Source of the DNA: Bacteroidota bacterium
Lineage (GTDB): Bacteria > Bacteroidota > Bacteroidia > UKL13-3
Reading direction: 5' to 3'
Assembly (NCBI GenBank): GCA_030680835.1
Contig: JAUXUD010000033.1
Location: forward strand, 1 to 64,000
Length of the DNA stretch: 64,000 nt
The notes below the pieces were generated by a model. The model searched no databases, was not told where the DNA came from, and saw only the letters and a program-made list of their open reading frames with translations. This document shows positions 15,934 through 22,132 of the stretch, in pieces. The translations under genes and the position numbers were made by a program. Within the stretch, counting starts at the first letter, position 1; every line of letters starts with the position of its first letter.

Positions 15934-18123
15934 ATGTTTGATATTAATAATAATAATAGAATTCGGGTATTGGGAACATATTGGTTTTTATCAATAAGTT
16001 TATTGTGTTTAGCAATAAATATATCGGCACAAAACAGGCAGGTAGACAGCTTACTGAATCTGATAAAAAAGCACCAAAATCAGAATACTGCCCTCGTTAA
16101 TTTGTACTGTAATCTGGCAGAAAATTACAGATATTTTAATCCCGAAAAGATGGAACCCATGGCCATGAAAGGATTGAAATTGGCAGAAAAAATAGGCTAT
16201 AAGAAAGGCATGGGTGATTGTATCCTGGCTTTGGGGGTTTATTGTTCATTTATAGGTGAGCATGAAAAGGCATTGCGTTACGATAATATTGCAATTGGAA
16301 AATATAAGGAGATAAATGATAAAAAGGGGTTGGGTGCCGCATATAATAATATCGCAAATATTTACAGTGATCAGGCAAGATACTATGAATCAATCGGCTT
16401 TTATAAAAAAAGCCTCGCAATCAGGGAGCTGATTGCTGATAGTGAAGGAATCGCTTCAAGCTATAATAATATGGGCAATTCCTGGCTGAACCTTGGAAAT
16501 TATTCTGAGGCGTTAACCAACTTATTGAAAGGATTGAGCATTCGTGAAAAGTTGGGTAAAAGTCAGCCCATTGTAAACAGTTTAAACAATCTGGCGGGAG
16601 TATATAATACCATTGGAAATCCCAGAAAAGGATTGCATTATTCTCTAAAAGCAATTAAATTAAGTGAAAAGGACAGCAATATTTTAGGTTGTCTCTGGTC
16701 ATATAACACAGCAGCATTGTCATACGCAGGTTTAAAGAAATATGAAAGGTCGCTCTATTATTATTACAAGGGACTTAATCTGGCAATTAAAAACGAATTC
16801 GAAGGGGAAGCACGGGTTTATGAGATTGGTATTGCCGAAGTATATGTGTTTTTAAAAGATTATACCCGGGCAACCGAACACTATCAAAAGTCGCTTAAAA
16901 TGGGTGAAAATTTGAATAATCCGGACGAAGATGCAACGATTTATATAGGTTTAGGTTCAATATATGCTAAATCGGGAGATGTAAAGAAAGGTCTGGAATA
17001 TTTATTAAAAGGGTATCAGTTGGCTGAGCGTATTCATTTTAGGCCACCCATGCTGCAAGTAACGAATGAAATTGCCAATGCCTATGCTCTGATGAATGAT
17101 TACAAAAAAGCGTTTCATTACAAACAACTTAATTCAGCATATGCAGATAGTTTACTGAATGATGAAACGAATAAAAAAATTGCGGAGGCACAATTTGATT
17201 TTGAATTGGCGAAGAAGCAAAATGCTATAGAATTACTGGAAAAGGATAAATCTATTCAACAGAAAGAATCAGATAAACAAAAGTATATTTCAATGGGTTT
17301 ACTGGGGTTCCTGATTTTGTCGTTTATCATTCTGTTGGGAGTTGTTGTAAATATCAGAAAAGAACGAAAATCAACAGCCTTAATTCGAAAACAAAAAGAT
17401 GAAATTGAGAAACAAAGAGTAACACTGGAATCGCTGAACCAGTTGAAAGATAAAACGTTTTCAATTTTATCTCATGATTTGAGATCTCCTGTGGGCTCAC
17501 TTACTCAAATATTAATTATGCTGGAAGATCAAAGCATTACACCTGAAGAGTTTCTTATTCTTAAGAAGCATCTGGACCAGCAATTGGTAGCCCTCAACCG
17601 CTTCCTCGATAATCTGCTGCACTGGTCGAAAAGCCATATGGAGGGGAATGTGAGCAGTTTAAAGGTTCCGCTCAATCTTTTGGATTTGGTGCAGCATAAT
17701 TTTCAATTGATGCACGAAAATGCAAAACAGAAACAAATTGAAATGATTAATGAACTGAGTGATGATGTTATCATAACAGCAGACAAGGATCAGATAGATT
17801 TGGTATTAAGAAATTTAATAGCCAATGCCATTAAGTTTACAACTAAAAATGGAACCATCAAAGTCTCATCAAAAGAAGAAAACAACAGGTTAATTATTGC
17901 TGTTAGTGATAATGGAATTGGAATGTCGGCCGAACGCAGTGCAAACCTGTTTGGTGATTTTGCAAACAGAAGTCTTGATGGCACCATTGGTGAAAAAGGT
18001 ACCGGATTGGGACTCTTGCTATGCAAAGAATTTGTGGAATTACATCAAGGAACCATATGGGTTGAAAGTGAATTGAAAAAAGGAAGTACCTTTTTTGTTA
18101 GCTTTCCCGTAAGAGAGGTATGA
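15934..18123 (+). CDS. TPR-containing sensor histidine kinase
   Basis: 729 residues. A signal peptide or anchor (about 14-32) is followed by tandem TPRs from about 45 to 400 (for example GLGAAYNNIANIYSDQARYY and GIASSYNNMGNSWLNLGNYS), a transmembrane helix (about 448-470), a coiled coil, then HisKA and HATPase. The H box is ILSHDLRSPVGSL (about 512), with NLIANAIKF, DNGIGM and GEKGTGLGLLLCKEF. This is the Bacteroidota layout of periplasmic TPR sensors fused to kinases. It is paralogous to the kinase at 11820-12980. Its last codon and stop (TGA at 18121) already belong to the heptamer array downstream, hinting that the array trimmed or replaced the original 3' end. Confidence 0.92.
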   Translation: MFDINNNNRIRVLGTYWFLSISLLCLAINISAQNRQVDSLLNLIKKHQNQNTALVNLYCNLAENYRYFNPEKMEPMAMKGLKLAEKIGYKKGMGDCILALGVYCSFIGEHEKALRYDNIAIGKYKEINDKKGLGAAYNNIANIYSDQARYYESIGFYKKSLAIRELIADSEGIASSYNNMGNSWLNLGNYSEALTNLLKGLSIREKLGKSQPIVNSLNNLAGVYNTIGNPRKGLHYSLKAIKLSEKDSNILGCLWSYNTAALSYAGLKKYERSLYYYYKGLNLAIKNEFEGEARVYEIGIAEVYVFLKDYTRATEHYQKSLKMGENLNNPDEDATIYIGLGSIYAKSGDVKKGLEYLLKGYQLAERIHFRPPMLQVTNEIANAYALMNDYKKAFHYKQLNSAYADSLLNDETNKKIAEAQFDFELAKKQNAIELLEKDKSIQQKESDKQKYISMGLLGFLILSFIILLGVVVNIRKERKSTALIRKQKDEIEKQRVTLESLNQLKDKTFSILSHDLRSPVGSLTQILIMLEDQSITPEEFLILKKHLDQQLVALNRFLDNLLHWSKSHMEGNVSSLKVPLNLLDLVQHNFQLMHENAKQKQIEMINELSDDVIITADKDQIDLVLRNLIANAIKFTTKNGTIKVSSKEENNRLIIAVSDNGIGMSAERSANLFGDFANRSLDGTIGEKGTGLGLLLCKEFVELHQGTIWVESELKKGSTFFVSFPVREV

Positions 18124-18238
18124 GGTATTAGGTATGAGGTATGAGGTATTAGGTATGAGGTAATAGGTATTAGGTATTAGGTATTAGGTATGAGGTGTGA
18201 GTTATTAGGTATGAGGTATGAGTTAAGGGTATGAGTTG
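18114..18238 (+). repeat. Degenerate heptamer tandem array (about 18 units)
   Basis: Head-to-tail 7-mers, mainly TGAGGTA and TTAGGTA, with variants ATAGGTA, TGAGGTG and TGAGTTA and one 6-mer (AGGGTA). The first units overlap the end and stop codon of the TPR kinase gene. The array points toward a four-helix-bundle gene; complementary 7-mers lie on its other side at 18702-18734. Confidence 0.95.
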
Positions 18239-18272
18239 AAAACTTTATACCAATTATATGATAAAATGTAAC

Positions 18273-18317
18273 CTAAAACACGGACATAAGTGAAGAATTA
18301 TGTGGTATGTGTTTTAG
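18273..18317 (+). other. Hairpin upstream of the four-helix-bundle gene
   Basis: CTAAAACAC (18273-18281) pairs perfectly with GTGTTTTAG (18309-18317). An inner stem ACATAA/TTATGT is separated from it by a small bulge, with loop GTGAAGAA. A TAnnTTTG-like box, TAGATTTG, overlaps the right arm (18315-18322), directly before the ATG. It could be an RNA structure or an operator. Confidence 0.6.
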
Positions 18318-18326
18318 ATTTGTATT

Positions 18327-18692
18327 ATGATAACATATAATAGTATCTCTCAATTACCTATTAGAGAAAGAAGTTTTAAATTTGCTGTTGAAATTGTAAA
18401 ATTTTGTACCTTGTTAAAAGAAGAACGTCAATATGAAATCGCAAAACAGTTAATTAGATCCGGAACTTCTATAGGCGCAAATATCCGGGAATCAAATAAT
18501 GGGTTTACAAAAAAAGATTTTATTTTTAAAGTAAACATTGCTCAAAAAGAAACAGATGAAACAATTTATTGGTTAGAAATTATAAAAGAAGTTTCCGACC
18601 TAAAAGAAGAGACAAATCATTTATTACATGAAGCAATGCAATTGCTAAAAATAATCCGAACCATATCAATTAACGCAAAAAACAAACAATAA
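18327..18692 (+). CDS. Four-helix bundle protein (S23/23S-rRNA-intervening-sequence family)
   Basis: 121 residues, all helical. Hallmark segment is LIRSGTSIGANIRESNNGFT (about 47-66), followed by FKVNIAQKETDETIYWLEII. The family includes proteins encoded inside 23S rRNA intervening sequences and is structurally related to the bAvd accessory protein of diversity-generating retroelements. Its usual role is unknown; a pentameric, nucleic-acid-binding barrel is known for some members. Here it stands alone between two convergent housekeeping genes, enclosed by inverted heptamer arrays, which suggests a small acquired cassette. No reverse transcriptase or rRNA is nearby. Confidence 0.9.
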   Translation: MITYNSISQLPIRERSFKFAVEIVKFCTLLKEERQYEIAKQLIRSGTSIGANIRESNNGFTKKDFIFKVNIAQKETDETIYWLEIIKEVSDLKEETNHLLHEAMQLLKIIRTISINAKNKQ

Positions 18693-18701
18693 CCCATCTA
18701 A

Positions 18702-18734
18702 AACTCATACCTCATAACTCATACCTCATACCTC
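18702..18734 (-). repeat. Inverted heptamer array (about 5 units)
   Basis: Read on the minus strand it is GAGGTATGAGGTATGAGTTA and onward, the same TGAGGTA/TGAGTTA units as in 18114-18238 but inverted. It ends 2 nt before the stop codon of the icmF gene. Confidence 0.92.
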
Positions 18735-18736
18735 TG

Positions 18737-21700
18737 CTACATATTCCTCCTATACTGCCCACCAACCTCAAACAAGGCATTTGTAATTTGCCCCAGCGAA
18801 CAATACTTAACGGTTTCCATCAGGGCATCAAAAATATTTTCATTGTGTATGGCAACCTTTTGAAGTTTTACAAGCATCTCTTTCCCTTTTTCCTCATTCG
18901 CTTTTTTCAATTGGTTCAGCATTTGTATCTGAAATTCTTTTTCTTCGGTAGTGGAGCGGATTACTTCTTTGGGTAAAATTGTGGGTGATCCTTTTGAGCT
19001 TAGGAACGTATTTACCCCAATAATCGGGTATTCTCCGCTATGTTTCTGCATCTCATAATACATACTTTCTTCCTGTATTTTATTGCGCTGGTACATGGTT
19101 TCCATGGCGCCCAGTACCCCTCCTCTTTCCGATATTTTATCAAACTCGGTTAATACCGCTTCTTCAACCAAATCTGTTAACTCTTCGATAATAAATGAAC
19201 CCTGTAATGGATTTTCGTTTTTGGCCAAGCCCAGTTCCCGGTTAATAATTAACTGAATTGCCATGGCTCTTCGCACCGATTCTTCAGTGGGTGTAGTTAT
19301 GGCTTCATCATATGCATTTGTATGCAGCGAATTACAATTATCATAAATAGCATATAAGGCTTGTAAGGTAGTCCGAATATCATTGAAGTCGATCTCCTGG
19401 GCATGCAGGCTTCTTCCGCTTGTTTGTATATGATATTTTAACATCTGACTGCGCTCATTGGCACCGTATTTTAACTTCATTGCTTTGGCCCATATCCTTC
19501 TGCTTACCCTGCCTATAACTGAATATTCGGGGTCGATTCCGTTGCTGAAAAAGAAGGACAGATTGGGCGCAAAATCATCAATATTCATGCCCCTGCTCAA
19601 ATAGTATTCAACAAAGGTGAATCCATTGGAGAGGGTTAATGCCAATTGGGTTATTGGATTTGCTCCGGCTTCGGCAATATGATATCCACTGATGGAAACG
19701 GAGTAAAAATTGCGAACTGCATTGTCGATAAAATATTGCTGCACATCACCCATCACACGAAGGCTGAATTCGGTAGAAAAAATGCAGGTATTCTGTGCCT
19801 GGTCTTCTTTTAATATATCGGCCTGAACCGTACCACGTACCTGTTTTAAAGTATCTTTTTTTATTTTAGAATACACATCTGCAGGCAATACCATATCGCC
19901 GGTAACGCCCAACAACATAAGCCCCAGGCCATTGTTCCCCTCCGGCATGGTTTCATTATAAACCGGACGGGCAACTCCTTTTGCTTTAAAAATAGCATCT
20001 ATTTTATTGTTGATTTCTGCTTCCAGTCCGTGTTTTTTTATATAAAGTTCGCATTGCTGATCAATGGCTGCATTCATAAAGAAGGCACAAATAATGGCAG
20101 CCGGACCATTAATCGTCATCGACACGGATGTTTTTGGGTCAGCCAGATTAAAACCTGAGTATAATTTTTTGGCGGCATCCAAACTCCATACACTCACTCC
20201 CGAGTTACCAATCTTTCCATAAATATCAGGCCTGTGGTCGGGGTCGTTTCCATATAAGGTAACCGAATCGAAAGCAGTACTTAAACGGGCTGCAGGCATG
20301 CCTAAACTTACATAGTGAAAACGTTTGTTGGTGCGCTCGGGTCCGCCTTCTCCGGCAAACATTCGGGTTGGATCTTCGCCCTCCCGTTTAAAGGGATAGA
20401 TACCTGCAGTATAGGGGAAATCTCCAGGGAAACTTTCCTGCAATGCCCAGCGCAGTATGTCTCCCCAGGATTTAAACCGGGGTACAGCAACTTTAGGAAT
20501 CTGTGAATGTGAAAGCGATTCACTATGGGTTTTAATCTTTAACTCTTTATCACGCACTTTATACAGATAGTATTCGCTTTTATAAGTGCTTATTTTCTCA
20601 TCCCAGTTTTCAATAATAATCTTGTTTCTTGGGTCAAGGTTTAATTCAATTTCTTTATAGGCTGCTTCAAGATGAGGAAGCATTTCTTTGAATGAATCGC
20701 TGGATTTTAATTTTTTATCGTTTAAGGTGTTAATGGTTGTTCTGATGCTGTATAATTTATCTGCAATTTCACCTTGCTTCAATACCCATTTATCATATGC
20801 CCGGTTGTTTTCAGAAATCTCTGAGAGGTACCGGATGCGGGCAGGTGGGATGATGTATATCTTCTCACTCATTTCTTCGCTGATATGGTAATTGGATTTT
20901 AAATCTGCACCCGATTTTTCAACAATTTTATCCATCACAGCCTTGTATAAACTGTTCATTCCGGGGTCATTAAACTGCGATGCGATGGTTCCGTAAACCG
21001 GCATGGTTTCGGGGTCTTTGTCGAATAAATTATGATTGCGCTGATATTGTTTTTTTACGTCACGCAAAGCATCTAAAGCCCCTTTTTTATCAAATTTATT
21101 AATGGCAATGATATCAGCAAAGTCAAGCATGTCAATCTTCTCCAGCTGTGTGGCAGCACCATACTCAGGTGTCATTACATATAAACTGGTATTGCTGTGT
21201 TCAATAATTTCCGTATCGCTTTGCCCGATACCGGATGTTTCCAGTATAATCAAATCAAAATGAGCTGCTTTTATGATATCAATGGCTTCTTTTACATATT
21301 TTGATAAGGCCAGGTTACTTTGGCGTGTTGCCAGTGACCGCATATAAACTCTGGGATTCTTTATAGAATTCATCCGGATCCGATCGCCCAATAATGCCCC
21401 GCCTGTCTTGCGTTTGCTGGGATCAACCGAAACAATGGCAACTGTTTTTGTTTCAAAATCGGATAAAAACCGTCTAACCAATTCATCAACAAGCGAAGAT
21501 TTACCCGAGCCCCCGGTTCCTGTAATCCCCAGCACCGGCGCTGTACCGATGCGATTTATTGCTTCTCCGGCAATTTTATTATGAACCCCAACAAATTCTT
21601 CGGGAAAATTTTCTGCCGCAGAAATTAAGCGTGCAATCGATTTATAGTCTTTATCTTTTAGATGGGATACCTCTCCATTTAAATTGGAACCGGTTGCAAA

Positions 21701-22132
21701 ATCACATTTTTCAAGCATATCATTAATCATGCCCTGTAATCCCATGGTACGGCCGTCATCGGGATGGTAAAGCCGGGTAATGCCATAGGCTTGTAGTTCA
21801 GCAATTTCCTCAGGTAAAATGGTTCCGCCGCCACCTCCAAATATTTGAATATGTGCACATCCCTTCTGAACCAACAAATCACGCATATATTTAAAGTACT
21901 CCACATGTCCACCCTGGTAGCTGGTCATTGCAATTGCATTGGCATCTTCCTGTATGGCGGTATCCACAACTTCTTCAGCACTTCTGTCGTGACCCAAATG
22001 AATTACCTCGGCACCACTGGCCTGAATAATTCGGCGCATAATATTAATGGCAGCATCATGGCCATCAAATAAAGCAGCTGCTGTTACGATCCTGATTTTA
22101 TTTTTAGGAATATATTTTTCAATGATTTCCAT
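18737..22132 (-). CDS. icmF: Fused isobutyryl-CoA mutase IcmF (B12 domain, G-protein chaperone, mutase)
   Basis: 1131 residues in IcmF order. The N-terminal cobalamin-binding domain shows DGHDAA, HLGHDRS and FGGGGGT (about 20-150). A MeaI/ArgK-type GTPase follows with Walker [13 protein letters not shown] (about 202-213), [21 protein letters not shown] and [12 protein letters not shown] linker then leads to the TIM-barrel mutase domain (about 540-1131), with [20 protein letters not shown] near its start. IcmF interconverts isobutyryl-CoA and n-butyryl-CoA using adenosylcobalamin; the G domain gates cofactor loading. The Phe in YPF is the position where methylmalonyl-CoA mutases carry Tyr (from memory), which favours the ICM assignment. 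Confidence 0.92.

Follow-up and report, generated by a model that had tools for sequence, protein, structure and literature searches.

Inverted heptamer arrays enclose S23 four-helix-bundle genes in many phyla and probably mark a mobile element

We analyzed a stretch of 64,000 nucleotides from a Bacteroidota bacterium (assembly GCA_030680835.1, contig JAUXUD010000033.1, positions 1 to 64,000), here called the window, in which a gene for an S23-type four-helix-bundle protein lies between two arrays of a heptamer. The left arm (18114 to 18235, plus strand) is built of about 17 tandem copies of TGAGGTA or TTAGGTA. This is one heptamer that varies between two letters at a single place, T[G/T]AGGTA, with degenerate ends, including the end toward the gene. 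An array-free spacer of about 90 bp of ordinary sequence (18236 to 18326, plus strand) separates it from the start codon of the S23 gene (18327 to 18692, plus strand). The right arm (18704 to 18734, minus strand) follows the gene and complements the left one with four to five heptamers in the inverted orientation (CTCATAC). Tandem Repeats Finder (TRF) assigns period 7 to both arrays, with 17.4 copies at 18115 to 18235 (score 151) and 4.4 copies at 18704 to 18734 (score 55). Over 18109 to 18145 and 18704 to 18740, the arms form an inverted repeat with 89% complementarity, and the right-arm region is predicted to fold as RNA with a z score of −6.1. A lag-7 scan of the whole window gave 66.5 for the left array, 19.0 for the right array, and 10 or less elsewhere; ten Markov-1 copies of the window, used as background, peaked at 7 to 12. 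The TRF scores and this comparison rule out that the arrays arose by chance or from coding periodicity, in agreement with a first-pass annotation of the window that had argued against coding drift.

The S23 gene is the only gene of the unit and encodes 121 amino acids. It matches PF05635 (23S_rRNA_IVP; E value of 2e-23, 83 bits against a curated cutoff of 33.8) and TIGR02436 (four helix bundle protein; E value of 7e-27, 93.9 bits against a cutoff of 24). The family profile also matches two solved structures whose PDB entries, 2rld and 2gsc, both contain five chains; 2gsc is the S23 protein XCC0516 of Xanthomonas campestris. To our knowledge, S23/IVP proteins have solved structures and no assigned function. 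A domain search of the unit found no transposase or recombinase gene and no HUH/Y1 tyrosine transposase. The two flanking genes lie outside the unit and converge on it. On the left is a gene for a TPR protein with a histidine-kinase-type ATPase domain (15934 to 18123, plus strand), whose stop codon falls within the left arm. On the right is icmF, encoding a fused B12-dependent mutase (18737 to 22132, minus strand), and the right arm stops 2 nucleotides short of the end of its open reading frame (ORF). The first-pass annotation had thus correctly described an S23-type gene, heptamer arrays on either side with the right one inverted, and a unit that fills the gap between convergent genes.

That annotation also proposed looking for the same association in other Bacteroidota, and the pairing of array and gene is real and reaches far beyond the window. 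PF05635 genes occur in 55 of 60 related genomes. From this set we took 64 S23 genes at 60 loci of about 17 kb, drawn from listed matches spread over the genomes and not chosen by their arrays. Lag 7 exceeded the threshold in 28% of S23 flanks on the upstream side and equally often (28%) downstream, compared with 1.2% of 904 control windows taken from those loci. Among the remaining lags between 3 and 13, none did so in more than 5% of S23 flanks, and lag 14 is a harmonic. The period-7 arrays lie on both sides of the gene and are inverted, and nearly every S23 gene has a heptamer of its own (ATGTACG/GTACATT, TTCGTTG/CGAACAA, and AGGTTTC/AACCTGA are examples). For this reason a pairing of S23 with GAGGTAT specifically is ruled out; what is conserved is the period and the inversion. 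When the upstream flank was compared with the reverse-complemented downstream flank, own pairs had a median score of 16.5 and mismatched pairs one of 8.0. Own pairs surpassed the 99th percentile of mismatched pairs at 42 of the 64 genes in the inverted orientation versus 5 of 64 in the direct one (permutation P = 5e-5). Arms are alike within a unit and different between units.

The association is general to the family and extends to other phyla. We scanned GTDB and kept the best 80 matches, which is not a random draw; 78 loci were usable, and 44 of these passed the same 99th-percentile bar, including 23 of the 39 from beyond Bacteroidota and their nearest groups. The loci span Bacteroidota, Clostridia, Planctomycetota, Nitrospirota, the candidate phyla radiation, proteobacterial and other groups, and one Methanophagales archaeon. 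In the pooled data, with neighboring genes defined by an ORF caller rather than by annotation, an inverted flank score of at least 12 was reached by 104 of 138 S23 genes (75%) versus 63 of 1,272 other ORFs at the same loci (5%); because some S23 genes share ancestry, such counts are not fully independent. Lag 7 was found beside 45% of S23 genes and 8% of other ORFs and lag 8 beside 12% and 1%, respectively; lags 5, 6, 9, and 10 were not enriched beside S23 in this comparison. The same procedure found inverted flanks at none of 29 loci of ParE toxins and at 23 of the 30 top S23 loci, which rules out a general property of small accessory genes. This architecture is specific to the S23 family (and one other family, PF13366) and is spread over many phyla. 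A collection of phages contained no S23 match. Some units depart from the pattern. Direct arms are found in a Pseudanabaena plasmid (L341) and at L119, L137, L205, and L279; some of these arrays are long, as upstream in L341, where AAAGCTA is repeated 13 times or more. Octamer arrays adjoin S23 genes at L063:1362-1429 and L057:1436-1466 (CAAATGGG and GTGATTAG), and the enrichment of lag 8 is weak but significant.

The S23 protein is maintained by purifying selection. In two sets of genes, the ratio of nonsynonymous to synonymous substitution rates is 0.04 to 0.15 for most pairs (near-identical pairs are uninformative), and the protein is therefore in use. The units also have a preferred orientation. 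Both neighbors point in the direction of S23 in 110 of 132 units (83%) versus 583 of 1,044 other ORFs, and both are opposed to it in 4 units versus 111 of those ORFs. The convergent neighbors of the window unit represent a rarer placement. Host genes that recur are sufB/sufC-like genes, sdh-like genes (sdhA/sdhB type), thiolase, and the two halves of metH; on cyanobacterial plasmids they are cas6/cas4 and cmr2/cmr3. No recurrent enzyme gene was seen next to S23, as 266 neighbors fell into 186 clusters, and scanning for motifs gave no sign of 23S rRNA near the units sampled.

The junction between the methionine synthase halves (metH) shows what moves together. Its content differs among species of the window's genus. 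In the genome of the window unit it carries a short hairpin. Eight species have a clade-A S23 gene there, flanked by GTCCATA/CTATGGA arms, and six genomes have a clade-B gene, whose arms are GCCTCTG/GCCAGAA; in G011 and G013, a clade-B unit sits beside leftover clade-A arrays. Outside the genus, the junction is empty save for 32 to 48 bp in G024, G035, and G051. The same split of metH without an insert in several genomes rules out S23 as the cause of the splitting. At one further locus, two genomes with upstream flanks 96.6% identical carry S23 genes just 68% identical and different heptamers. The arms travel with the S23 gene, not with the site. Among nonsyntenic pairs, arm similarity was found in 2.4 to 9.7% where S23 identity was about 55% or more and in about 0.3% below that, so heptamers change faster than the protein; across the whole range, a tracking of protein identity by heptamer similarity is rejected (Spearman −0.01). 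At some loci, the arms are themselves coding sequence (L113:8415-8900, L107:8444-8960, and L339:2100-2500), supplying the last codons and the stop of the preceding gene (metH-N or cas6), and in the same set of loci start codons of the following gene (metH-C) also lie within heptamer arms. The metH gap can also hold PF13366 genes of the PD-(D/E)XK type (GxxExxY-like), at L298/L386 (G012), L302 (G022), and L309 (G027). Genes of this family are bracketed by inverted short repeats of a CACAGAG type without period 7, scoring at least 12 at 21 of 30 loci (L387 to L416) versus 0 of 29 for ParE. They may be a second class built on this plan, with a nuclease fold.

Sites that are otherwise near identical either carry a whole unit or lack it entirely. 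On a Trichormus plasmid, a unit with CAGAATT/CAGGAGT heptamers lies between two genes of a conjugative-plasmid operon. It is missing from plasmids that share about 98% identity at that site, namely those of Fremyella, Nostoc, Tolypothrix, and Aulosira. The empty site reads ...GTTAAAAAGTAATTAACAAATA... and the filled one ...GTTAAAAAGTAAT-AAATCAG...S23...TTCTTCTTT-GTAATTAACAAATA..., where GTAAT is directly repeated (5 bp). This insertion also occurs in Scytonema, with a smaller number of heptamers, and Nostoc C052 has a decayed copy there. The same S23 subfamily is found at other sites in other Nostoc plasmids, and array-only derivatives with both ends are found in further plasmids. In a second pair of empty and filled Nostoc plasmids, TTCTA stands on both sides and is ambiguous because it resembles the heptamer. 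At the nrd, integrase, and cmr sites, the unit is present or absent and divergence makes the repeats unreadable. Some cyanobacterial plasmids carry S23 units within CRISPR operons of types I-D and III-B, in the orders cas6/S23/cas4 (L339 and L341) and cmr2/S23/cmr3 (L362); related plasmids are without the unit, and these copies look like insertions rather than CRISPR parts. For the window unit, the first-pass annotation had proposed a comparison of empty sites: a sister species, G018, has no S23 unit between the kinase gene and icmF, but a different insertion fills the gap, and no clean empty site was obtained. That insertion (L155:1194-1484) is a decayed ORF with a PNHVHGII motif between perfect 16-nucleotide inverted repeats. 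By eye the ORF resembles RAYT, the tyrosine transposase associated with repetitive extragenic palindromes (REPs), and a 45-amino-acid piece of it had no Pfam match.

Array pairs of one heptamer that hold no S23 gene, in the polarity of the arms, are dispersed in genomes. In the genome of the window unit, the window heptamer with up to 3 mismatches gave 225 + 285 matches, against 6 + 2 for a read-backwards control, and the matches listed fall into about 30 or more separate places. Strict GAGGTAT-array matches number 159 in this genome and 0 to 1 in each of 59 relatives. At least 7 of the 20 array regions fetched are pairs in plus-then-minus order, mostly with a short spacer, and four S23-less pairs are predicted to fold as RNA with z scores from −5 to −12. 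In G015 and G007, close opposite-strand pairs of GTCCATA arrays are all in arm polarity (counted by eye from the match list, with overlapping palindromic matches excluded). The first-pass annotation had asked whether arrays are equally frequent without the gene. They do occur without it at the places just counted, but nearly all are in the single genome with the cognate S23, as expected of nonautonomous derivatives. Clade-A arrays are more abundant in clade-A genomes (P = 0.014) and clade-B arrays in clade-B genomes (P = 0.008), with read-backwards controls near 0; these tests are supportive rather than decisive, since their basis is 13 related genomes and a choice of heptamers made after the metH locus had been viewed. 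Some arrays in the genome of the window unit shift heptamer along their length (L196:2485-2600, L203:2430-2510, and L197:2407-2515), from GAGTTAC to GATGTAC or from GATGTAC through GATGTAT to GAGGTAT, and so combine heptamers belonging to two S23 units of that genome.

Our preferred reading is that the locus is probably a single instance of a mobile genetic element in which complementary, family-specific heptamer arms enclose an S23/IVP four-helix-bundle gene. S23, likely a pentamer, would recognize its own family's arms when these form a hairpin, either as cruciform DNA or as folded RNA. Such recognition would act in cis on the unit that encodes S23 and in trans on hairpins that lack the gene, and the protein would promote the insertion of both into intergenic gaps. 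We infer the recognition of arms by S23, the action in trans, and the chemistry. The unit seems to depend on read-through transcription, which we propose as the reason for the sense bias. Arms can furnish the stop of the upstream gene and the start of the downstream gene, and we propose that insertion is tolerable on that account. The one clean 5-bp direct repeat favors a staggered DNA cut, and insertion as DNA is quite plausible. A route through an RNA intermediate, with a reverse transcriptase acting in trans, is a possibility to which we give rather less weight; it would fit the sense bias, the occurrence of S23 genes in intervening sequences (IVSs) of rRNA, and the kinship of S23 with bAvd, the four-helix-bundle protein of diversity-generating retroelements (DGRs).

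Several observations weigh against the mobile-element reading. S23 has no known catalytic domain, so its autonomy is doubtful. Only one 5-bp repeat is unambiguous, the second being confounded with the array and the nrd, integrase, and cmr sites being too diverged. Several units are old and vertically inherited, as at metH in eight species. About one in ten units has direct rather than inverted arms, and some show octamers or lack a clear period. The correlation of heptamer and protein similarity is confined to close relatives, and the clade-specific enrichment was tested in 13 related genomes with heptamers chosen post hoc. The neighbors of the window unit are convergent, and it lacks a clean empty site; its own mobility we infer. 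The first-pass annotation had proposed a small, self-contained mobile element. The general pairing, the presence and absence of whole blocks, and the direct repeat at one clean site fit the mobile part, but self-sufficiency is doubtful for a protein with no known catalytic fold.

Could the unit instead be an RNA-processing module? The arms would form an mRNA stem cut by RNase III, as in IVSs, thereby decoupling the expression of neighboring operon genes; S23 would bind or protect the stem, and the unit would be kept for regulation, its spread being incidental. The sense bias between codirectional genes, the recurrent neighbors (metH halves, sufB/sufC, and sdhA/sdhB type), the stable predicted folds, and the vertical retention at metH would all suit such a role, and the Coxiella IVS stem is indeed excised by RNase III (PMC4990558). 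We consider it unlikely, given that plasmids 98% identical do entirely without the unit and that heptamers and S23 clades swap at a single locus. Dozens of S23-less hairpins across a genome look like spread and not like regulation alone, and the window unit stands between convergent genes. An explanation that we also judge improbable makes S23 a passenger or control protein, with a host enzyme of the HUH/RAYT type or a reverse transcriptase mobilizing the hairpins in trans, so that S23 units would themselves be nonautonomous. The absence of a catalytic fold agrees with this, as do the separate reverse transcriptase with which bAvd relatives pair (PF22296 cross-matches) and the possible RAYT remnant with 16-nucleotide inverted ends in the same gap of the sister species. 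It sits poorly with purifying selection on S23, with S23 clades that track the dispersed array family, and with the lack of a recurrent enzyme gene beside S23 (186 clusters from 266 neighbors).

Unrelated processes, in which replication slippage makes the arrays and S23 merely inserts into or survives near array-rich gaps, are disfavored and in our view very improbable. Such processes would account for copy numbers that vary between close relatives, for one heptamer drifting into another inside a single array, and for the G011 and G013 units beside leftover arrays of another family. They fail to predict complementary arms flanking the gene (75% versus 5%), gene-specific arms, a fixed hairpin polarity, and period 7 across many heptamers, and ParE genes in the same genomes gave 0 of 29.

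The mobile-element reading can be set beside several known systems. Insertion sequences and miniature inverted-repeat transposable elements share with our units the terminal inverted repeats, the short S23-less derivatives, and, at one site, the 5-bp direct repeat; here, however, there is no transposase fold, and tandem arrays take the place of a fixed terminal sequence. The REPIN/RAYT system is similar in having a single-gene source and many short, dispersed, gene-free inverted pairs that are family specific and mostly intergenic. It differs in its HUH/Y1 tyrosine transposase, RAYT, and in its REPs, palindromes of about 20 nucleotides, whereas our units have a four-helix bundle and heptamer-array ends. 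DGRs contain a homologous, nucleic acid-linked four-helix bundle, and PF22296 (bAvd) matches are found on S23 units. In DGRs, bAvd works with a separate reverse transcriptase, but none adjoins the window unit, whose neighbors are the kinase gene and icmF (template and variable repeats were not searched for). We know of no heptamer arms in DGRs. Dispersed, intergenic, clade-specific heptamers are familiar as families of simple sequence repeats, including the short tandemly repeated repetitive sequences of cyanobacteria. TAACTGA is dispersed in Beggiatoaceae, cyanobacteria, and Bacteroidetes, with no transfer mechanism evident in the 2015 report (PMC4679880). GGGAATC occurs in Xanthomonas, with 70 to 75 close inverted pairs per genome, and GGGGA(C/T)T occurs in Nostoc (PMC4692102). 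Neither report proposes a mobile source gene or mentions S23, and we found no earlier description of an S23-heptamer link in the open-access papers that we searched (subscription papers and preprints were outside the search). Mobile S23 units would offer a source for these previously unexplained repeats, and such a link predicts that every heptamer family has its own S23 unit, present or lost.

Also close to the window unit are the IVSs with an S23 ORF in Leptospira and Coxiella, which have the same protein family and an ORF within terminal inverted repeats. 23S rRNA IVSs are sporadic and horizontally acquired, and their mobility has been proposed; in Coxiella, tandem GACAGAT heptamers precede the S23 ORF and had not been linked to other genomes (PMC4990558). 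IVSs lie in rRNA helices and are excised by RNase III, whereas our units lie between protein genes, the window unit in the kinase/icmF gap and not in a 23S rRNA gene, and have locus-specific heptamer arms and dispersed S23-less hairpins. IVSs may be mobile S23 elements in their rRNA-resident form. On a broader and more tentative view, S23 units would be a pan-bacterial class of mobile elements whose sole protein is an arm-specific mobilizer of a new mechanistic kind. They would be the source of heptamer families in cyanobacteria, Bacteroidota, and proteobacteria, with IVSs as copies that landed in rRNA and PF13366-type genes as a second class. Mobility of IVSs was reportedly proposed in the 1990s without a mechanism. 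One answer may thus serve three questions: the role of S23/IVP proteins, the entry of IVSs into rRNA genes, and the origin of dispersed heptamers.

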